A stretch of 64,000 nucleotides of DNA from Streptomyces gossypii (GTDB lineage Bacteria > Actinomycetota > Actinomycetes > Streptomycetales > Streptomycetaceae), in contig NZ_JAJAGO010000002.1 in the NCBI RefSeq assembly GCF_025165795.1, forward strand, positions 186,001-250,000. Direction: 5' to 3'. The notes beneath the pieces were generated by a model. It worked only from the letters and a program-made list of their open reading frames with translations. It made no database searches and was not told the origin of the DNA. The position numbers were made by a program, and so were the translations under genes. Positions 35,833 through 44,858 of this stretch are shown here, piece by piece (the first letter of the stretch is position 1; each line of letters starts with the position of its first letter).

Positions 35833-36219
35833 CTACGAGTCGGTACCGTCAGCCAGGTGCTTTTCGAGGGACTGCACCCGCTCGGCCAACTCCACGAACT
35901 GAGCTTTGAGTTCAGCGAAATCCTCCGCTGTCACGGGGGTGGTGGTCGGGCCCGTGGGAGCGTCCGGGTCCGGGACGAAGCTCCCGCGCCCGGTGGTGAA
36001 GATCCATCCCTCGTTCCGCAACACCCCCAGCGACTTCTGCACAGTCGCCGACACGAAGCCCGACCGCTCGGACAGCTCCCGTACGGAAGGAAGCTTCTGA
36101 CCGGGCCCGATGGCAGCGCTTCTGATCTGTTCGCGCAGGTCATCAGCTAGTTGCTCGAAGGGCGCCCTGGGGTCGTTCTCAGCTCTCGTCACACCTTCGA
36201 GCGTACCCGCGCCTGACAC
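35833..36219 (-). CDS. Small GntR regulator (YtrA type)
   Basis: 128 aa from GTG 36219; GTG 36192 (VTRAENDPRAPFEQL) is an alternative. Winged helix: APFEQLADDLREQIRSAAIGPGQKLPSVRELSERSGFVSATVQKSLGVLRNEGWIFTTGRGSFV. Then a short helical dimerisation tail AEDFAELKAQFVELAERVQSLEKHLADG, which lacks a ligand domain. The inverted repeat at 36256-36289, just upstream and before the plus-strand transfer operon, is its likely operator. Confidence 0.8.
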   Translation of the reverse strand: MSGAGTLEGVTRAENDPRAPFEQLADDLREQIRSAAIGPGQKLPSVRELSERSGFVSATVQKSLGVLRNEGWIFTTGRGSFVPDPDAPTGPTTTPVTAEDFAELKAQFVELAERVQSLEKHLADGTDS

Positions 36220-36255
36220 GTCCTAGCACGGTTCGTGAGCTAGCAGGCTTGCGAA

Positions 36256-36289
36256 TTGATACGTGATGCTACAAGCTACTACGTATCAA
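36256..36289. promoter_or_regulatory. Inverted repeat TTGATACGT-N16-ACGTATCAA
   Basis: Perfect 9-bp arms in the divergent gap between the YtrA-type repressor gene and the transfer genes. Probable repressor binding site. Confidence 0.6.
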
Positions 36290-36343
36290 CAAACCATCGC
36301 CCGGAGGGCCCCGTGAAACGGGTCCGAAGGAAGCGACTGCTTC

Positions 36344-36466
36344 TTGAGAACTCAACAGTGTGTTGAAGCCGAGTGATTTTGGTCCGCGATGCCGCCTGTG
36401 CTGGGGCGTCGCGGTCCATGACCACTCGTCTGCGACGAGTCGTCGCGCCGTCCGGCCGGACGGCGC
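36344..36466 (+). promoter_or_regulatory. Structured leader start: TTGAGAACTCAA box and two hairpins
   Basis: The palindrome TTGAGAACTCAA (36344-36355), within GAGAACTCAACAGTGTG, resembles the processing/antitermination leader seen before rRNA genes of Streptomyces. It is followed by a 7-bp hairpin (ACTCGTC/GACGAGT, 36424-36440) and a 22-bp perfect palindrome (36445-36466). Together with the element at 36506 this forms a long untranslated leader of the transfer operon. Confidence 0.5.
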
Positions 36467-36505
36467 CCCAGGGGCCGCGTCCGCGTCTGACGCGGACACC
36501 AGCCC

Positions 36506-36596
36506 GGCAGCGGGCCACGACCAACCGACCACCACCTTGCCCGTGGCCCGCTGCCCCCTTCTTCCACTCCCGACCAGGACACAGGAGCTCCGAGAC
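36506..36596 (+). ncRNA. Candidate leader RNA motif, copy 1
   Basis: A perfect 14-bp stem (36506-36519 with 36542-36555) carries the 22-nt loop ACCAACCGACCA...TGCC, followed by CCACTCCCGACCAGGACA and CAGGAG, then the ATG at 36597. Copy 2 at 39642 has the same loop start and end and the same 3' segment, but a different stem sequence. Confidence 0.6.
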
Positions 36597-36911
36597 ATGA
36601 CCATGAAAGCCTTCATCGGCCAGCACGAGATCGTCACCGACGACGACGCCCTTGAACTCATGCTGGGCACGCCGCTGGACTTGTGGCTCGGCCCCGCTGA
36701 GGAGACCGGCGAGGAGCGCGCGGCCCGGCTGGACGCGGCCCGCGACATCCTCACCGAGGACCCGGAGCTGACCGAGCGGGTCAGGCGTGCGGTGCTGCTG
36801 GCGCTCGCGAACCTCTCGGCGGAGCTGCTGCACGCCACGTGGTTCAACCAGTACACCGCGCACCGTGCCGGTCGCATTCACGCTGGCGCTCCGGCTCAGG
36901 AAGCGGCATGA
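36597..36911 (+). CDS. AICE conserved small protein (104 aa)
   Basis: ATG 36597, AGGAG 9 nt upstream. MTMKAFIGQHEIVTDDDALELMLGTPLDLWLGPAEETGEERAARLDAARDILTEDPELTERVRRAVLLALANLSAELLHATWFNQYTAHRAGR: acidic then helical; no domain recognised. It begins the plus-strand operon leading to traB and follows leader motif copy 1. Its stop overlaps the next start (ATGA). Confidence 0.7.
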   Translation: MTMKAFIGQHEIVTDDDALELMLGTPLDLWLGPAEETGEERAARLDAARDILTEDPELTERVRRAVLLALANLSAELLHATWFNQYTAHRAGRIHAGAPAQEAA

Positions 36912-37291
36912 GCGCCAGCTACCGGTGTGAGGCCGCGCACCCCGAGGACCCCACCGGGTGCGAGGGACCGCCCGACGTGGTCCGCGTGACCGACTCGCGG
37001 GGCGGCATGGCGTGGGCCTGTGTGCATCACGGGGCGCGGATGTACGCCTCGCTTCACCGGGCGCGTGTCTACCCCGAGCCCGGTCAGGTCTGCGCCGCCC
37101 GCTGGGCTGTGTGTGGCCCGACTCCGACCCCAGCGAGCACGAGGGACGGCTCATCCTGTGGGTGGGAGACAAGGACCTCTCCAAGACCGGGGCGGTCAAG
37201 TGGACGCTCACTCACGCCGAGCGGCACGACATCTTCCAGCAGATCCCCTTCGGCGTCGATCCGCGCGGCCGTGCGCAGTCGGTGCCGATGA
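36908..37291 (+). pseudogene. Small Cys/His protein fused to out-of-frame traB sequence
   Basis: ATG 36908. The first about 60 residues (MSASYRCEAAHPEDPTGCEG ... MAWACVHHGARMYASLHRARVYPEPGQ) look authentic, with a possible C..H..C...C..HH metal site. From about 37090 the frame reads traB DNA out of frame (VCGPTPTPASTRDG) to a random stop. A deletion has joined the front of this gene to the middle of traB. Confidence 0.5.
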
Positions 37292-38367
37292 TCCAGCACA
37301 ACGTGCTGCTGGGCTCGCTCCCCGGGCAAGGGAAGACCTCAGCGGTGCGGGTGCTGGCCTGTGGCGCCGCCCTGGACCCGAGCGTGGAACTGTGGCTGCA
37401 CGAGAACAAGGGCACCGGCGACCTGGACGCGTTGGAGACCTGCTCACACCGCTTCGTCTCCGGCATCGATGACGACTCCATCGCCTACGCCGCCAACTCC
37501 CTGAAGCTGCTGCGCAAAGAGGTGATGCGCCGTGCGGCGGCCATCAAGAAGCTGCCGCGCGACCTGTGCCCGGACAAGCGGGTCACCCGCACCATCGCCG
37601 ACAAGCGTTCGCTGAAGCTGTGGCCGCTGCTCGGAGTCTTCGACGAGTGCCAGAACGTCTTCGCTCACCCCAAGCACGGCAAGCAGGCCGGGGAGGACGC
37701 GGAGTTCATCATCAAGGTCGGCCGCGCCCTGGGCGTGATCCTCATCCTGGCCACGCAGCGCCCGGACAAGGATTCCCTGCCCACCGGGATCAGCGGCAAC
37801 GTCTCCATCCGGTTCTGCCTCAAGGTCGCGGGCCAGGTGGAGAACGACATGATTCTCGGCACGAGCGCGTACAAGAACGGCATCCGCGCCACGATCTTCC
37901 GTCCTGAGATCGACGCAGGAAACGGCTACCTGTCAGGCGCCACCGCCACCCCCAGCGTGGTTCGTGTCGCCTACCTCAACAGCCACGCCACCGAGAAGAT
38001 CGCTGAACGGGCCCGCAAGCTGCGCCGGGCGGCGGGCACCCTGTCCGGGCATGCCCTGGGCGAGGAAGCCGAGGGCGAGACCGGCCCCGGATACGACCTG
38101 CTCGCCGACATCCTCTCCGTAATCCACGACGACGAAGAGCGGATCTGGAACGAGCGGATCGCCATCCGCCTCGCCGAACTGCGCCCCACCGTCTACGCCG
38201 GGTGGAAGGGCGAGGTGGTCACCGCCGCGCTCAAGCCCCACGGCATCAAGGCGCGGGACGTAGCCGGGATGACCGAGAGCGGAGACCGCACCACCCGGCG
38301 CGGCATCGTCCGCGAGCACATCATCACCGCGATGACGGAACGTGACGAAAATCGGGACGTTGCCTGA
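37111..38367 (+). CDS. traB: TraB/FtsK-SpoIIIE DNA translocase, N-terminally truncated
   Basis: 418 aa from GTG 37111, the first plausible in-frame start (VWPDSDPSEHEGRLILWVGDKDLSK). Walker A GSLPGQGKTS (about 66-75), Walker B LLGVFDECQNVF, arginine-finger region ILATQRPDKDSLPTGISGNVSIRFCLKV, and a C-terminal winged helix (VVTAALKPHGIKARDVAGM...GIVREHIITAM) that should bind the clt repeats. AICEs move double-stranded DNA with this single hexameric pump. The usual N-terminal membrane helices are absent, matching the deletion at about 37090; a soluble TraB is unlikely to work. Confidence 0.8.
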   Translation: MWPDSDPSEHEGRLILWVGDKDLSKTGAVKWTLTHAERHDIFQQIPFGVDPRGRAQSVPMIQHNVLLGSLPGQGKTSAVRVLACGAALDPSVELWLHENKGTGDLDALETCSHRFVSGIDDDSIAYAANSLKLLRKEVMRRAAAIKKLPRDLCPDKRVTRTIADKRSLKLWPLLGVFDECQNVFAHPKHGKQAGEDAEFIIKVGRALGVILILATQRPDKDSLPTGISGNVSIRFCLKVAGQVENDMILGTSAYKNGIRATIFRPEIDAGNGYLSGATATPSVVRVAYLNSHATEKIAERARKLRRAAGTLSGHALGEEAEGETGPGYDLLADILSVIHDDEERIWNERIAIRLAELRPTVYAGWKGEVVTAALKPHGIKARDVAGMTESGDRTTRRGIVREHIITAMTERDENRDVA

Positions 38368-38374
38368 CGGTGAC

Positions 38375-38430
38375 GGGCCGCTACCGGTAGCAGGACCCCC
38401 TGCTACCGGTAGCACCCCCGCTAGCGGCCC
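38375..38430. repeat. Nested inverted repeats after traB
   Basis: GCTACCGGTAGCAGG (38380-38394) pairs perfectly with 38399-38413 over a 4-nt loop; each arm itself contains the palindrome GCTACCGGTAGC. Outer arms GGGCCGCTA (38375-38383) and TAGCGGCCC (38422-38430) add an alternative fold. It could be a terminator, a transfer locus (clt) or a repressor site. Confidence 0.65.
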
Positions 38431-38506
38431 ACACATCCCGCCACCAGCGATCTAGTACATAGCAACTCGCCTGCCCGAAACCCGGAACCGCCCCTGGGAG
38501 GGCTCC

Positions 38507-38761
38507 ATGACCTCTGCTCTGAACGCTATACCCGGCATCATTTTCATCACTCTGAGTTACGCAGCGCTGTGCGCTGTCTCCCCCTTCGGTACCTGCCGCA
38601 AGTGCCAGGGCTTCGGCTGCCAGATCCGCGAGTCACGGCTGACCGGGCGTCTCAAGGCCGGTCGCGTCTGCCGACGCTGCCAGGGCTACGGGCGCCGTCT
38701 CCGCTTCGGCCGCTGGCTCTACAACCATGCCTCGCGACTGCACCGCGACGGCACCCGCTGA
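38507..38761 (+). CDS. AICE small membrane protein with CxxC zinc-ribbon pairs
   Basis: 84 aa; ATG 38507 with GGGAGGG. One N-terminal helix (NAIPGIIFITLSYAALCAV) then CRKCQGFGC and VCRRCQGYGRR, a DnaJ-like CxxCxGxG pair. This type of small protein is common between traB and spdB genes of Streptomyces elements; role unknown, possibly in plasmid spread. Confidence 0.75.
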   Translation: MTSALNAIPGIIFITLSYAALCAVSPFGTCRKCQGFGCQIRESRLTGRLKAGRVCRRCQGYGRRLRFGRWLYNHASRLHRDGTR

Positions 38762-38784
38762 TCCAACGCAGAAGGGGCACGACC

Positions 38785-38862
38785 GTGCACTTCCTCGTGC
38801 TCCCGCCTCAACGCCTCAACCCCCTTGTCCGCACCACCCAGCAGAAGGGTGACCAGCCGTGA
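38785..38862 (+). CDS. Possible 25-aa peptide ORF
   Basis: GTG 38785 after GAAGGGG (7 nt); VHFLVLPPQRLNPLVRTTQQ and five more residues; stop overlaps the next GTG (GTGA). The ribosome site and overlap favour translation, perhaps only to couple the next gene. No independent evidence of function. Confidence 0.35.
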   Translation: MHFLVLPPQRLNPLVRTTQQKGDQP

Positions 38863-39053
38863 CCATCTCCGTCTCCGTCGTTCTCTTCCTCGGCATCGCG
38901 CTTGCCGTCGTGCTCAAGCTCCGCTCCGCGACCGTCGGCGGTGCCGTTATCGCCGCACTGTTCGGCTTCTATCTCGCCTCGACCGACGCAGCCCCCGCCG
39001 TCCACGACGCGGTGGCCAGCCTCGCCACCGCCATAGCCGACATGGGCACCTGA
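38859..39053 (+). CDS. AICE small two-helix membrane protein (Spd-like)
   Basis: 64 aa, GTG 38859. MTISVSVVLFLGIALAVVLKLRSATVGGAVIAALFGFYLASTDAAPAVHDAVASLATAIADMGT: two hydrophobic helices joined by a KLRS turn. Small proteins like this act with SpdB in spreading of the element between mycelial compartments; assignment is by position and topology only. Confidence 0.65.
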   Translation: MTISVSVVLFLGIALAVVLKLRSATVGGAVIAALFGFYLASTDAAPAVHDAVASLATAIADMGT

Positions 39054-39089
39054 CCCCACCCGCCACACCTCGTGAGAAAGGACAGACCC

Positions 39090-39635
39090 TTGTTGGAGAT
39101 CCGCATCATCTGTGACCCGCCCGAGGAAACCGGCGTTCTCGACGCCCTGCGCATGGTCTTCGAGCTGGACCCGGTACGCCGCTACCCCACCCGCGGCCAG
39201 ACCCGCATCCGGCTCTACACCACGGCCGCACCCATCCGCGAGACCGAGACCGCGACGGTCCGGCGCATCCACCCCGGACCGGACCCCCAGGCCGCGTACA
39301 CGGAGGCGCCGAGCCTCATCATCGAACTCGACTGGGTGGCGGACCAAGCTGCGGCCCGCGCCAGCGGCGCGCACATGGGCCGCGAGTTCTGGCTCCGCAA
39401 GGCCGCCCTCCTCGACCGCATCGCGCTCCACGGGACCGAGAATTACATCCCCGAAGTCGCCGCCCGCACGGTCGAGAACGCGGACAGGGCGGCTGCCTGG
39501 CTCGCGGACTTCGATCACACCCACGGCACAACGCGGGGCCCGCTCATGGCTCTGGTGGCCCCGGAAAGTCTGTCCTACCGCCCGTACGTCCGCCAGGAAT
39601 ACCTGGCCTGGAACACCCAACGCACCGAGTCCTAG
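39090..39635 (+). CDS. AICE conserved hypothetical protein (181 aa)
   Basis: TTG 39090 (LLEIRIICDPPEETGVLDALRMVF) fits the AAGGAC ribosome site better than the earlier GTG at 39072. An N-terminal alpha/beta part (EIRIICDPPEETGVLDAL, TRIRLYTTAAP) is followed by a helical part (AAARASGAHMGREFWLRKAALLDRIALHGT...ARTVENADRAAAWLADFD). No domain recognised. It lies between the small membrane genes and the replication gene. Confidence 0.65.
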   Translation: MLEIRIICDPPEETGVLDALRMVFELDPVRRYPTRGQTRIRLYTTAAPIRETETATVRRIHPGPDPQAAYTEAPSLIIELDWVADQAAARASGAHMGREFWLRKAALLDRIALHGTENYIPEVAARTVENADRAAAWLADFDHTHGTTRGPLMALVAPESLSYRPYVRQEYLAWNTQRTES

Positions 39636-39641
39636 CTGTGC

Positions 39642-39723
39642 CCGGAGGCGGCGACCAACCGACCAAGGAATGCCCGCCGCCTCCGGTCTCCCACTCCCAA
39701 CCAGGAAACAGGAGGCTCCCAGG
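39642..39723 (+). ncRNA. Candidate leader RNA motif, copy 2
   Basis: Perfect 12-bp stem (39642-39653 with 39675-39686), 21-nt loop ACCAACCGACCA...TGCC, then CCACTCCCAACCAGGAAA and CAGGAGG before the ATG at 39724. Stem sequence unrelated to copy 1. Confidence 0.6.
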
Positions 39724-41696
39724 ATGCCATCCGATCCCCTTGAAGCGCTGCATGGCAATGTGCGCGCCCTTCCCGGGCACGGCGAACACGGCGGACCCCC
39801 CGCCGATTTGGAGGCGGAGGCCGCAGTCCTCGGCGCCATGCTGCTGGCCGCCGACGCCATCGCCGATGTTGTCGTGAGCATCACTCCAGAGGATTACTAC
39901 CGGCCTGCGCACGAGACGATTCACCGCACGATCGTGGCCCTGCGCGAGCAGGGCCAGCCCGTGGACCCCATCACCCTCACCCATCACCTCGACAGCCTCG
40001 GCGAGCTGAACCGAGTCGGCGGGCCGGCTACATCCACAGCCTTGTGGATGCCGTGCCGACAACGGCGAACGCTGGCTACTACGCCGAGATCGTGCACGAA
40101 CTCGCCGAGCGCCGACGGCTGATCGAGGCCGGCACGCGGCTCGTACAGGCGGCGTCCACCCCGGACGCCTCCGCTGCCGAGGTGCGCGAAGCACTCGCGC
40201 TCGGGGAGACGAAGCTCCCCGAGACGTGGCAGGAGCCCATCCCCCTCAGCTCCCGCCCACCGCTGCCGCCCTTCCCGCTGCACGCTCTCCCCGGCTGGCT
40301 CGCGGACTTCACCGTTGCCCTCGCGGAAGAGACGCAGACGCCGGTGGACATGGCTGGCTCCCTCGCGCTGAGCGTGCTCGCCACCGCCGCCGGTGGCCGC
40401 AGCATCGTGCAGGTACGGGGCCGCTGGCGGGAGCCGACGAATCTGTTCCTGGTCGTCGCGCTGCCTCCGGCGAACCGTAAATCGGCTGTCTTCTCGGCCA
40501 TGACCGGCCCGCTCTACCAGGCGGAGAAGAAGCTCATGGACGAGGCGGCAGGGCGCATCGTGGAAGCGGAACTGACGGCCAAGATGGCGCAGGAGGCAGC
40601 CGACAAGGCAACGGCCAAGGCCACCAACGCGGAGGGCCCGCAGAAGGATGAGTTGGTCGCCGAGGCTATCGGCCTGGCACAGACTGCGCAGTCGCTGACC
40701 GTGCCGTGCTGTCCTCGGCTGCTCGCCGACGACGCGACACCCGAAGTCATTTCCTCACTGCTTGCCGAACAGGGTGGTCGGCTGTCGGTGATGTCGGCGG
40801 AAGGTGGCATCTTCGACATCATCGCCGGGCGCTACTCCGGCAGCCCCAACATGGAGGTGTTCCTCAAAGGCCACGCGGGCGACCGGCTCCGCGTGGACCG
40901 CCGCAACCGTGAGGAGTTCATCGAGGCCCCGGCGCTCACCATGGGTCTGGCCGTTCAGCCCAGCGTGCTGGAGGACATCGGAAAGAACCGCGGCTTCGAC
41001 GGGCGCGGCCTGCTGGCCCGCTTCCTGTACGCGCTGCCCGCCTCCCTCGTCGGCTACCGGAAGATCAATCCCGATCCCGTCCCGGATGACGTCGGGACGC
41101 GCTACGAGCGCAACGTCATCACGCTCACACTCTCCCTCGCGGACTGGACGGACCCGGTTGTCCTTCGGCTCACCGAGGCGGCCAGTACGGCTCTCATCGC
41201 GTATGAGAAGCGACTTGAGCCACAGCTCCGGGTGCGGGGCGGCAAGTTCGGTCACATCGACAAGTGGGCGGGCAAGCTCGTCGGAGCCGCCGCTCGCATC
41301 GCCGGACTGCTACACCTTGCCGCGCACCTGGAGGACGGCGACGGCCATCCGATCGCTGAGGCGACCATGGCGGCGGCCATCGAAGTTGCCGAGTATTTCG
41401 CCACGCATGCGCTGACGGTCTTCGACCTCATGGGCGCGGACGCGACCCAGGCGCGCGCCCGCTCACTGTTGGAGGTACTGGCCGCGAACGGCTGGGAGAC
41501 CGTGAGCCGTCGTGATCTGTTCGCCAAGCTGTCGCGCTCGGAGTTCCCCACGGTCGCCGACATGGAACCGGCCGTCGCGCTGCTGGAGGATCACGGCTAT
41601 CTCCGCAGCCACACCCCTCCCCGGAACGGGAAGCGGGGCCGCCCCCTGGCCCCGCGCTACCTCATCCACCCGCAGGTGCGGGAGGGCCGGGTATGA
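39724..41696 (+). pseudogene. DnaB-N/DUF3987-type replication protein, split by a frameshift
   Basis: ATG 39724 with AGGAGG. Frame 1 gives the DnaB N-terminal domain (DLEAEAAVLGAMLLAADAIADVVVSITPEDYYRPAHETIHRTIVALREQGQPVDPITLTHHLDSLGELNRVGG); at 40024-40027 one G is missing, and the protein continues in the next frame (GYIHSLVDAVPTTANAGYYAEIVHELAERRRLIEAG ...) to 41696. The rest is a DUF3987-like helicase/primase-associated region (LFLVVALPPANRKSAVFSAMTGPL, MSAEGGIFDIIAGRYSG) and a C-terminal winged helix. It should be the AICE replication initiator/helicase. A reinitiated C-terminal product from about 40044 is possible. Confidence 0.75.
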
Positions 41697-42118
41697 GGGC
41701 CCGCACGGCTCTGCGCGCGGCTCCTCGGCCGCACAAACCGCAGAAAGATCAAAAGTCTGGGACCACCCAGACCGACCAGCAGCGGAACGCCTCCCGGACT
41801 GGCGCAGCCCGTCCGCCGCACAAATCCGCGAAACAGCCGCAGAAACGCGGTGCGGCCCGCCCGCCCCACCACGGCCGCTCTGCCGCAGCTGATTTGTGCG
41901 GCACTTCCGGCGCATTCTGCGGCAGCGAGTCGCATCACCCCAACGCCGCAGGTCACAGCAGAAACGCGCGCCATTCTGCGGTTTCTGCGGTTTCTGCGGC
42001 GGAGGTCCGTCGCCTTCCCGGCCCGGACACCGTCCTCGTCGCCGACATCCACACCACCCGCGAGACCGCCCGCGAAGCCCTGCACGACCTCCGCGCACAG
42101 GAAGGAGCCGAACAGTGA
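41693..42118 (+). CDS. Low-complexity ORF spanning the iteron array
   Basis: ATG 41693 overlaps the upstream stop and the end overlaps the xis start, so it fits an operon of coupled genes. The product is unusual: Arg/Pro/His/Lys/Gln-rich (PHKPQKDQKSG, PHKSAKQPQKRG) because the DNA consists of CCGCAGAAA-like 9-mers; only the last 35 residues (VRRLPGPDTVLVADIHTTRETAREALHDLRAQEG) look folded. It may be a basic DNA-binding protein or simply a readable origin. Uncertain. Confidence 0.45.
   Translation: MRARTALRAAPRPHKPQKDQKSGTTQTDQQRNASRTGAARPPHKSAKQPQKRGAARPPHHGRSAAADLCGTSGAFCGSESHHPNAAGHSRNARHSAVSAVSAAEVRRLPGPDTVLVADIHTTRETAREALHDLRAQEGAEQ
41729..41999. repeat. Iteron-like 9-mer array (CCGCAGAAA), candidate origin
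   Basis: Copies of CCGCA(G/C)AAA: 41729, 41738 (adjacent), 41816 and 41837 on the plus strand; inverted copies at 41893 and 41914, and three in perfect tandem at 41973, 41982 and 41991. They follow the replication gene directly, the usual place for an AICE double-strand origin. Confidence 0.6.
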
Positions 42119-42303
42119 CCACCGCAACCGAGGAACTGCTCACCGTGCCGGAAGTCATGCAGCGGCTCAAGGTCGGCCGCTCCACGGTCTACGACCTCAT
42201 CCGAACGCAGCGTCTCCCCTCCCTGACCATCGGCCGCAGTCGCCGGGTCCCGGTCGAGGGCCTGCGTGCCTACCTGCTCACACGTCTCGAAGAGGCAGCC
42301 TGA
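42115..42303 (+). CDS. xis: Excisionase (Xis, MerR-like HTH)
   Basis: 62 aa, GTG 42115. LLTVPEVMQRLKVGRSTVYDLIRTQRLPSLTIGRSRRVPVEGLRAYLL is a complete HTH_17 domain (VPEV...L.VSR.TVY.LI..G.LP...IGR..R.P...L..YL). It directs the integrase toward excision. Start and stop overlap the flanking genes (GTGA, TGATG). Confidence 0.9.
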   Translation: MTTATEELLTVPEVMQRLKVGRSTVYDLIRTQRLPSLTIGRSRRVPVEGLRAYLLTRLEEAA

Positions 42304-43460
42304 TGGCCAAGCGTCGCCCCAACGGTGGGGGCACTGTCACGAAGCGCAAGGACGGCCGCTATCAGGGGGCCGCGTACGTCACAGACACGGACGGGCATCG
42401 GGTGCGGAAGTTCGTGTACGGCTCGACGTACGACGAGACCGCCGAGAAGCTGAGCAAGCTGCAAGATCAGGAGCGTAACGGGGTGCCCGTTCCGTCACGG
42501 TCCTGGAAGGTCGGCGAGTGGCTGAGCTACTGGCTTGAGCAGATCATCAAGCCGAACCGGGAGCACAACACCTATCTGAAATACGAGTCCAAGATCAGGC
42601 TCTACCTCGTCCCTCACCTCGGCAAGAAGCCGCTCATCCGGCTCACCCCCGCTCAGCTGCGGACCTTCATGGCAGCGCTCAACCGCGAGGGAGTGCCCGC
42701 CGCGACGCGGTTCGAGGTCCTGCGAGTGCTACGCAACGCCCTGAACCGTGCCCGGCGGGAGGAGATCATCACGCGGAACGTCGCTGAACTGGTCGACATG
42801 CCAAAGGTCAGCAAGCAGGAGCGCAAGCCGTGGACAGCAAAGGAGGCGATCACCTTCCTGCGTACGGCACGGGCGCACCGGCTGTACGCCGCGTGTGTCC
42901 TCGTGCTCGTCCTCGGCCTGCGGCGCAGTGAGGTCCTGGGACTGCGCTGGCAGGACATCGATTTCGACAACGACCAGTTCACCCCGGTCAAGCAGGTGCA
43001 GCGCGAGGATGACGGGCTCGTCCTCAAGGCCCTCAAGACGGACTCGTCACAGGCTGCGCTGCCGATGCCGAAGTTCTGCGCGGATGCCCTCGAAGAACGG
43101 CGGTACCTGCAAGGACTGGAGCGGCACATCGCAGGCGCCGACTGGCACCAGAAGGAAGACGAGGATCTGGTCTTCTCAGAACGGAACGGGGGGATGATCG
43201 AGCCGCGCGGCTTCTCCCGGAGCTTCGAGGCGCTCGTCAAGCGGGCCAAGGTCCGCCCTGTCACGGTCCGGCTGGCCCGGCACACCTGCGGGACCCTGCT
43301 GGCCTTTCTGAAGGTGCATCCGAAGGTGGCTCAGGCCATCCTCCGCCACAGCCAGATCAGCATGACCATGGACATCTACACACACGTAGTGGACGAAGAT
43401 CAGCGGGATGCGGCGACGCTGCTGGCCGACCTGCTAAAAGGTGATCCCTCGGGTGGCTGA
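42303..43460 (+). CDS. int: Tyrosine site-specific integrase
   Basis: 385 aa; ATG 42303 shares bases with the xis stop. N-terminal AP2-like arm-binding region (NGGGTVTKRKDGRYQGAAYVTDTDGHRVRKFVYGSTYDEA-like), SAM-like core-binding domain (about 65-155), catalytic domain with Arg207 (GLRRSEVLGLRW), Arg326-His327 (RLARHTCG) and nucleophile Tyr359 (MDIYTHV). The first position of the usual HxLRH box is Arg here. It should recombine attP with tRNA-Ile. The terminator that should follow is cut in half at about 43490. Confidence 0.93.
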   Translation: MAKRRPNGGGTVTKRKDGRYQGAAYVTDTDGHRVRKFVYGSTYDETAEKLSKLQDQERNGVPVPSRSWKVGEWLSYWLEQIIKPNREHNTYLKYESKIRLYLVPHLGKKPLIRLTPAQLRTFMAALNREGVPAATRFEVLRVLRNALNRARREEIITRNVAELVDMPKVSKQERKPWTAKEAITFLRTARAHRLYAACVLVLVLGLRRSEVLGLRWQDIDFDNDQFTPVKQVQREDDGLVLKALKTDSSQAALPMPKFCADALEERRYLQGLERHIAGADWHQKEDEDLVFSERNGGMIEPRGFSRSFEALVKRAKVRPVTVRLARHTCGTLLAFLKVHPKVAQAILRHSQISMTMDIYTHVVDEDQRDAATLLADLLKGDPSGG

Positions 43461-44323: not shown

Positions 44324-44564
44324 CCTCAGTGGTGACTTGCATCACATTCTCGTCACGCCGCCACTTTCCCAGCTCAACGCCACTCCAGGCCCGCAGTCGG
44401 CGACGGCTCCCCCCTCTCTCCCGGTGTCGGTCGATCCCCTGCCGGAGGCATTGCCTTGACCGCCGGCCGTTTCATGCGGTGTTTGACTCATGGCTTCCGG
44501 CTCCTATCCACATGTGGGCGGAAGATTGCCGGTGAGCACTGGTTGCAGGAGCCGGACCCATGAC

Positions 44565-44858
44565 CTGAGCTTCTCCTCCGAGTACCGCGGCATGATCGAT
44601 CCGGTGGGCTTCTGCCGCATCATCGAGGCGCTCGTCAAGCGGGCCAAGGTCCGGCCTGTCACGGTCCGGCTCACCTGGCACACCTGCGGGACCGTGCTGG
44701 CCTTTCTGAAGGTGCATCCGAAGGTGGCTCAGGCCATCCTCCGCCACAGCCAGATCAGCATGACCATGGACATCTACACGCACGTAGTGGACGAAGATCA
44801 GCGGGATGCGGCGACGCTGCTGGCCGACCTGCTGAAAGGTGATCCCTCGGGTGGCTGA
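44565..44858 (+). pseudogene. Second integrase, 3' end only
   Basis: FSSEYRGMIDPVGFCRIIEALVKRAKVRPVTVRLTWHTCGTVLAFLKVHPKVAQAILRHSQISMTMDIYTHVVDEDQRDAATLLADLLKGDPSGG: nearly identical to the end of int at 42303-43460 over the last 75 residues but diverged before that, so it is from a related element rather than a fresh duplicate. The catalytic Arg (RLARH in the intact copy) is Trp here (RLTWH). It is followed by its intact terminator and attR. Confidence 0.85.

Follow-up and report, generated by a model that had tools for sequence, protein, structure and literature searches.

Just ahead of the transfer genes and the replication genes of integrative and conjugative elements in Streptomyces lie hairpin leaders that, as judged from sequence, form a large family of cis-acting RNA structures, apparently not described before. 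In this family the loop behaves like a name tag, usually common to the leaders inside one element and different between elements. The structure, its covariation, its placement and the matching of loops within elements can be read from the aligned leaders. Two members lie in the window, the whole 64,000-nucleotide stretch of Streptomyces gossypii DNA that was analysed (Table 1).

Direct reading of the sequence confirmed the two hairpins, with unrelated stems and matching tails before the start codons at 36597 and 39724, that a first-pass annotation had described. In copy 1, GGCAGCGGGCCACG (36506-36519) is joined to CGTGGCCCGCTGCC (36542-36555) by 14 Watson-Crick pairs, and in copy 2, CCGGAGGCGGCG (39642-39653) is joined to CGCCGCCTCCGG (39675-39686) by 12. 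Both tails read CCACTCCC(G/A)ACCAGGA(C/A)ACAGGAG, followed by ATG. The annotation had called the loops identical, which holds for their common start (ACCAACCGACCA) and end (TGCC), but the full-length loops differ, with an edit distance of 0.29. Folding z-scores of the RNA are -3.18 for copy 1 and -2.90 for copy 2. Perfect hairpins with stems of 12 bp or more and loops of 6-25 nt number 10 in the window, compared with 0.15 on average in 20 shuffles, so a perfect hairpin by itself is nothing special here. The unusual part is the common loop start and tail with differing stems, together with the family beyond the window. An exact 12-mer is found at only two places in the window, which are the two leaders, and a search of the 7.5 Mb genome for this 12-mer with CCAC at 15-45 nt gave just two places.

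Table 1. Leader hairpins and neighbouring genes in the window (position 1 is its first letter)
Feature	Positions	Strand	Basis
GntR-type regulator, adjoins copy 1	35833..36219	-	
Leader hairpin copy 1, 14-bp stem, 22-nt loop ACCAACCGACCACCACCTTGCC	36506..36555	+	sequence, RNA fold, models R1/R2
Copy 1 tail: CCACTCCCGACCAGGA, ACAGGAG ribosome site, ATG	36556..36599	+	sequence, alignment with other leaders
orf98 homologue, 104 aa, first gene of the transfer region	36597..36911	+	
FtsK/TraB-like transfer gene, 469-aa open frame	36958..38367	+	FtsK_SpoIIIE 23.7 bits, just below the cut-off of 24
84-aa membrane and CxxC protein, common to many of the elements	38507..38761	+	
Gene 5' of copy 2, TAG stop 6 nt before the hairpin	39072..39635	+	
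Leader hairpin copy 2, 12-bp stem, 21-nt loop ACCAACCGACCAAGGAATGCC	39642..39686	+	sequence, RNA fold, models R1/R2
Copy 2 tail: CCACTCCCAACCAGGA, ACAGGAG ribosome site, ATG	39687..39726	+	sequence, alignment
Replication gene, DnaB N-terminal domain then DUF3987, two frames	39724..41696	+	
Tyrosine integrase of the element, open frame as listed	41850..43460	+	

Among the genes of Table 1, the orf98 homologue matched no Pfam, NCBIfam or PHROG family. The FtsK/TraB-like gene looks truncated at its N-terminus compared with relatives of about 740-760 aa, and a search for a leader of its own found none. The replication gene has a frame break near 40020, while its relative in the element L097 is a single 645-aa frame. 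Among leaders of orf98 and of replication genes, the loop type of the window is otherwise found only in L097.

Model R1, which was built with the window sequences, scored copy 1 at 34.0 bits and copy 2 at 59.7 bits. Model R2, from which the window sequences and L097 had been left out, ranked copy 2 first in the window (46.1 bits, E 8.5e-9) and copy 1 second (24.9 bits, E 6.1e-4). In the whole genome at E <= 0.001, R2 listed copy 2 (E 1.0e-6) and not copy 1, so copy 1 is a divergent member. Both window hairpins belong, as divergent members, to a leader family that is widespread. The window loop type is rare: across 199 genomes of the genus, the exact loop plus CCACTCCC pattern turned up nowhere but in the window pair and at a single unrelated position (G014) with no hairpin, and in viral contigs only in three A+T-richer contigs where the hairpin is absent. 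The route to the family was homologous genes, not loop sequence.

Of 121 genomes of the genus, 94 gave a covariance-model match to the motif at E <= 0.001, and with a window-free model the count was 41 of 61; some genomes contain at least 10 leader copies. Leaders are generally built alike: a long, G+C-rich stem whose sequence is free is topped by an apical region of about 15-20 nt, and then come a pyrimidine-rich tail, the ribosome site and the start codon, which lies 26-45 nt from the stem. In an alignment of 52 leaders made by MAFFT and not fitted to structure, changes on both sides were found in all 11 stem pairs and 94.9% of cells were paired, compared with 38-52% in slid controls, while double-change cells numbered 106 versus 21.1 in shuffles. 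The proposal of a selected RNA structure with compensatory stems is thus borne out, and the further copies in other elements on which it depended are present in many of them.

Inverted repeats of this kind might instead act as DNA, either as targets of a DNA-binding protein or as sites for replication or transfer, and an inversion of the loop between unchanged arms, as a few loops show, would be neutral for such a site. A similarly placed precedent is the extended start-associated sequences (ESAS) of cluster K mycobacteriophages, described in PMC3203893 as an inverted repeat just 5' of a conserved ribosome-site sequence, and judged there by the authors to be likelier DNA-binding sites. Like the leaders, ESAS are repeated before several genes per genome and their consensus varies between subclusters; unlike them, they have conserved 17-bp arms and a variable spacer, with departures that, according to the authors of PMC3203893, give no support to RNA pairing. 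In the leaders it is the arms that change, with compensating partners, and the loop that stays conserved inside an element. Free variation of the arms with pairing kept is the opposite of a DNA operator, and the orientation and the distance to the start codon are fixed, with 194 of 197 matches in 81 loci on the strand of orf98 for a model that itself ends at the start codon. We regard a DNA-level role as very improbable.

Family members stand in front of the genes that open the transfer region and the replication region, a position that supports the link between replication and transfer genes suggested by the annotation. The genes behind the leaders are non-homologous, including prim-pol, DnaB/DUF3987, methylases, an HTH xis-like gene and an integrase-like gene. 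Among 75 replication leaders examined, 67 of the 70 with a called stop start 5-7 nt past the stop codon of the preceding gene, while a gene ends within 150 nt upstream in only 12 of 69 orf98 leaders. The strong G+C stems past a stop codon in replication leaders would suit intrinsic terminators of the preceding gene. But the longest T run in the 15 nt after the stem is 3 in the 52 leaders, no terminator was called in 36200-39800 of the window, most orf98 leaders lack a gene that ends just 5' of them, and the tail and ribosome site are conserved, all of which makes termination hardly credible.

First-gene and replication-gene leaders were paired in 61 of 81 loci; of the 20 unpaired loci, about 12 result from a different, short-looped hairpin before orf98. 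In the 61 loci, the loop distance is 0.066 within elements versus 0.297 between elements, which was reached in none of 10,000 permutations. Tails track the gene, with a distance of 0.344 within elements and 0.211 between replication leaders, and for stems these distances are 0.247 and 0.190. By loop classes defined after the loops had been seen, the two leaders agree in 60 of 61 loci (chance, 0.17). Moreover, among element pairs with TraB more than 85% identical but a different class, both leaders differ in 53 of 54. Pairs are in general not independent of one another, since close relatives are among the elements. The loop pairs change together in evolution while the genes between them stay nearly identical. 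The same loop is found on orf98 and the replication gene, and in some elements also on methylase, xis and integrase genes; TraB leaders have loops that differ from the other leaders of the same elements. The conserved loop claimed by the annotation therefore stands within an element, but between elements the loop is replaced and is not family-wide.

Such matching could also arise if the hairpins were mRNA stabilisers or processing barriers whose loops were homogenised by recombination over short stretches. The long perfect G+C stems would suit a stabiliser or barrier, the 5-7 nt spacing of replication leaders (67 of 70) would suit an intercistronic barrier, and stems, inner ones included, are also somewhat matched inside elements (z -6.7 and -7.3). 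Loops, however, agree over 15-20 nt, a match not seen in the stems and tails beside them, and a tract of this length is shorter than ordinary homologous recombination needs. Co-resident elements also keep distinct loops. We consider this explanation unlikely.

The same loop on several leaders of an element makes one element-specific trans factor the most likely reader, and the different loops often carried by co-resident elements in one genome speak against a host-encoded one. We therefore lean, with some reserve, towards leaders as sites for an element-specific trans factor that would coordinate transfer and replication. The stem would present the loop and the loop would hold the information; a single factor, probably an RNA-binding protein, would recognise it and switch orf98, replication and the other leader-bearing operons together, at translation or by antitermination. 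What is inferred here is that such a factor exists, what it is and in which direction it regulates. As a more tentative extension, the private loop of each element, read by its own factor, may form an RNA-level identity code by which related co-resident elements are switched independently, resembling the repressor/operator specificity of heteroimmune phages but at the mRNA level.

Pairing of the loop with RNA, whether an antisense RNA that the element encodes or the leader's own ribosome site, is quite unlikely. By inspection, CUCC or CUCU in some loops could pair with GGAG, and some inverted loops are complementary to other loops. However, in 61 elements the longest reverse-complement match to the loop averaged 8.31 nt in the own element versus 8.28 nt for loops of other elements, and a trans-acting antisense RNA was rejected for this lack of excess; one transcribed from the strand opposite a leader could still be made. 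The ribosome site (CAGGAG) is constant while loops vary, and loops of the window type have no CUCC; sequestering of the ribosome site by the loop was ruled out, by inspection only, on this constancy.

A comparable arrangement of hairpin leaders on several operons of one mobile genome may be boxB of the lambdoid phage nut sites, where the loop is bound by the N protein of the phage with phage-dependent specificity. The boxB hairpin, in contrast to the leaders, is short, has a loop of five bases, lies beside boxA and is not directly before a ribosome site. No N-like protein for the leaders was found among element protein families. Using rank correlation, nearest-neighbour agreement, single-column association and near-identical-pair tests, no element protein family in our own, incomplete gene calls approached the 60 of 61 agreement of loops. 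For example, in pairs with TraB less than 80% identical and the partner more than 85% identical, the loop class was common in 72% of 36 pairs for prim-pol, 77% of 22 for DUF2637 and 72% of 25 for GntR; the methylase family gave 5 of 5, a number of pairs too small to rely on. As an N-like candidate, orf98 itself gained no clear support: an arginine-rich tail is present in most homologues (weak in the window copy), but the tail shows no link with loop class. A structure model of one orf98 relative (L072) is helical, with a mean pLDDT of 71.5 and a tail below 50.

Most sampled Streptomyces genomes carry the leader, yet in the stretches scanned no Rfam family overlapped a leader at its gathering score. 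In the window (36200-39900, E <= 10) the best overlap was CC3552 at 39644-39728, with 20.2 bits against a gathering score of 50, and no match overlapped a leader in 15 loci scanned at E <= 0.5 or in 7 scanned at gathering score; the existing Rfam family that would have refuted the annotation's proposal was thus absent at gathering score from these stretches. The gntR-DTE RNA (RF02989) lies just upstream of some orf98 leaders, at 1188-1313 in L017 and 9685-9810 in L034, where the hairpins start at 1430 and 9928. It lies 114-117 nt 5' of the hairpin with no overlap, belongs to a separate model, and had no match in window stretch 36200-39900.

The leaders may offer a direct handle on how replication and transfer of an element are switched on jointly. 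On that question, the known case is pSAM2, with an activator of the replication operon (PMC8584621): the element-encoded Pra controls the replication, xis and int operon under the GntR repressor KorSA (PMC8584621, PMC3218068). Pra differs in being a transcription activator, and the available portions of these two papers mention no RNA leader. Matched loops could make the regulator findable, since the specificity element of an RNA bait would then be known and could be swapped. Against plasmids, blastn of the leader returned just three short chance-like pieces, and tblastn of an orf98 relative returned one plasmid, an 18-kb circular record.

The two hairpin leaders of the window represent a real and large family of leader RNAs with an unusual loop-matching pattern, apparently uncatalogued so far. 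They lie in an integrative and conjugative element, whose tyrosine integrase adjoins a tRNA-Ile gene. As the first-pass annotation had read from the sequence, they have a common loop start and a common tail on different stems. Perfect hairpins of at least 12 bp are common in the window (10, vs 0.15 per shuffle), so a hairpin by itself proves little, and the noteworthy part is the common loop start and tail despite the different stems.

Features of the element that carries the two leaders
Feature	Position in window	Remark
Integrative and conjugative element	34-45 kb	GntR regulator, FtsK/TraB-like gene, DnaB/DUF3987 replication gene, tyrosine integrase
Leader hairpin before orf98	36506-36555	ATG at 36597
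orf98	36597-36911	104 aa, first gene of the transfer region
Transfer gene	36908-38367	
Perfect 14-bp hairpin of CTACCGGTAG units	38380-38413	directly 3' of the transfer gene
Replication-side leader hairpin	39642-39686	ATG at 39724
Frame break	near 40020	between DnaB N-terminal domain and DUF3987
Integrase	41850-43460	
Short second copy of integrase C-terminus	44490-44858	near the tRNA-Ile gene

Searching for the exact window loop gave almost no matches, and the family was reached through orf98, which has homologues in 14 of 100 related genomes and on one circular 18-kb plasmid record (NZ_CP107792); 80 of 146 loci in genome contigs were kept. Most loci contain, directly before orf98, a long G+C hairpin with a loop of 15-20 nt, followed by a UCCCUGUCCCUUCGA-like tail and a ribosome site. 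Several kb further downstream, a second leader built in the same way precedes the first gene for replication (prim-pol, DnaB/DUF3987, methylase or a short open frame), and traB is preceded by a third, weaker one. Perfect Watson-Crick stems (at least 10 bp, loop 10-24) occur in 23 of 81 stretches upstream of orf98, vs 41 of 2,025 stretches drawn at random from these loci; G-U pairs or mismatches are present in most leader stems.

When 52 leaders, among them the two of the window, are aligned with MAFFT, they show one helix of 11 pairs, in which 94.9% of cells are paired and all 11 pairs are changed on both sides; the compensatory stem change proposed from the two copies is thereby borne out. 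Double-change cells number 106, vs 21.1 after shuffling; not one of 500 shuffles attains any of five covariation measures, and pairing falls to 38-52% when the partner is slid by 1-3 columns. The stem lies 26-45 nt from the start codon (median 37). Seven leaders, taken from different loop classes, also suggest a short three-pair helix at the apex; two of its pairs have compensated changes, but each of the three is broken in 2 or 3 of the seven sequences. The structure of the leaders is firm; their function we infer.

A covariance model including the window copies gave 197 matches in 81 loci at E <= 0.1, 194 of them on the orf98 strand. At E <= 0.001, the genomes with a match were 94 of 121 in the genus, 94 of 147 in the order (two outside the genus) and 24 of 197 in the class (12 outside the genus); a single genome holds 14 matches. 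The 14 inspected matches outside the order comprise 8 with a convincing loop and stem, two uncertain ones and four that are chance-like. A second model, built without the window sequences and the related locus L097, matched 41 of 61 genomes and gave the two copies its top two ranks within the window. Of its 20 weaker matches inspected, all but that in locus L204 end at a start codon, and the downstream genes are mostly element-like: among 10 searched against Pfam, FtsK, GGDEF, Prim-Pol and DpdA were at or above the cut-off in 4, and FtsK and DnaJ-like below it in 2.

The loop follows the element, while the flanks follow the gene. With the best 150 matches, orf98 and replication-side leaders could be paired in 61 of 81 loci, where the loop edit distance is 0.066 within elements vs 0.297 between them, a matching reached by none of 10,000 permutations. 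Loops are identical in 25 of the 61 pairs, and the own partner is nearest or tied in 87%. For tails, the within-element distance (0.344) exceeds that of replication tails between elements (0.211), and stems show the same trend (0.247 vs 0.190). Fine loop classes, defined after the loops had been seen, agree in 60 of 61 pairs, with L039 the sole exception. TraB is more than 85% identical in 100 element pairs, which are not independent because the same elements are reused; the replication loop class differs in 54, and the orf98 loop differs likewise in 53 of these.

Some of the 20 unpaired loci are cut by contig ends, and L097 stayed unpaired under the 5-kb rule although both its loops match. 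In about a dozen (L033, L036, L056, L057, L066, L069, L071, L078, L082, L098, L100, L107), the leader before orf98 is of another type, its loop being about six bases long; this type has a 12-14 bp stem, a loop of about 4-6 nt and an outer GGGCCGTT arm, and may constitute a structured leader family of its own. All six loci with the class F replication loop (L033, L056, L057, L071, L082, L107) have it before orf98, so their orf98 and replication leaders share no loop. In four other loci (L117 and L118, on C12 of the window's own genome at about 557.9 kb and 412.3 kb, L202 and L196), unchanged stem arms carry the usual loop, or a sister loop, in reverse complement. This could reflect spacer inversion by template switching, irrelevance of orientation, or pairing of loops with each other.

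Several elements may share one genome, and 45 leaders were inspected in five genomes, the window's own among them. For the 38 with a neighbour within 12 kb, the loop distance is 0.14 in mean and 0.06 in median within elements (29 pairs), vs 0.32 and 0.35 between elements of one genome (103 pairs). For example, three leaders of one element in genome G058, those of orf98, of a DnaB-like gene and of a small HTH gene, share a loop private to that element, and on one contig of G018 a single loop type recurs in four leaders, among them that of an integrase-like gene. Some distinct elements within a genome have the same loop, such as two in G069. Six within-element pairs exceed 0.3, each pairing the leader of a TraB-like gene (identified by family membership for the two of the window's own genome, by N-termini for the others) with another leader.

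As elements within one cell have different loops, a host-encoded factor is unlikely. Loop class is matched by no element protein family to the degree that the loops match each other, and the arginine-rich tail, found on the orf98 product in most homologues, bears no relation to it. Reverse-complement matches to the loop show no excess length in the own element (8.31 nt, vs 8.28 for foreign loops). The comparison system is nut/boxB. In the stretches scanned against Rfam, no family attained its gathering score on a leader, and searches of literature outside subscription journals showed no description of the leaders in the titles and abstract openings listed (by passages: PMC8584621, PMC3218068, PMC3203893, PMC2864571).

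Upstream, 70 of 75 replication-side leaders have a called reading frame, which ends 5-7 nt before the hairpin in 67. TAG accounts for 61 of these 67 stops, vs 290 of 1,315 called open frames across the loci; BLAST links 59 of the 70 upstream proteins into a single cluster, so the pattern partly reflects shared ancestry. The consensus TAGnTACGC at the start of replication leaders, absent from orf98 leaders, could be a promoter -10 element, the hairpin then lying at the 5' end, or mark termination coupled to the hairpin. In L075, L084, L086 and L095, a palindrome like AGATTGACATAGGTCAATCT follows a TTGACA-like box upstream of the orf98 leader and is probably the operator for the element's repressor.

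The 35 traB-side loops inspected are of the tcAACCGACCAaagcagc kind, the cccacctctcacagcg kind, or others. The tcAACCGACCAaagcagc kind is the window's loop; the window orf98 and replication leaders thus use a loop found on traB elsewhere. The traB gene of the window lacks a leader and appears truncated. Relatives of this transfer gene are about 280 aa longer and come with a DUF2637 gene and a traB leader, both absent here; an internal deletion is likely. The frame break in the replication gene, which is one 645-aa frame in L097, is decay or a sequencing error. The second integrase C-terminus is almost identical to the end of the integrase and may be what is left of another insertion. At the position matching the hairpin behind the transfer gene, L033 has a comparable repeat of CTATCGATAG; we take the CTACCGGTAG and CTATCGATAG repeats to be, possibly, transfer recognition repeats of TraB.
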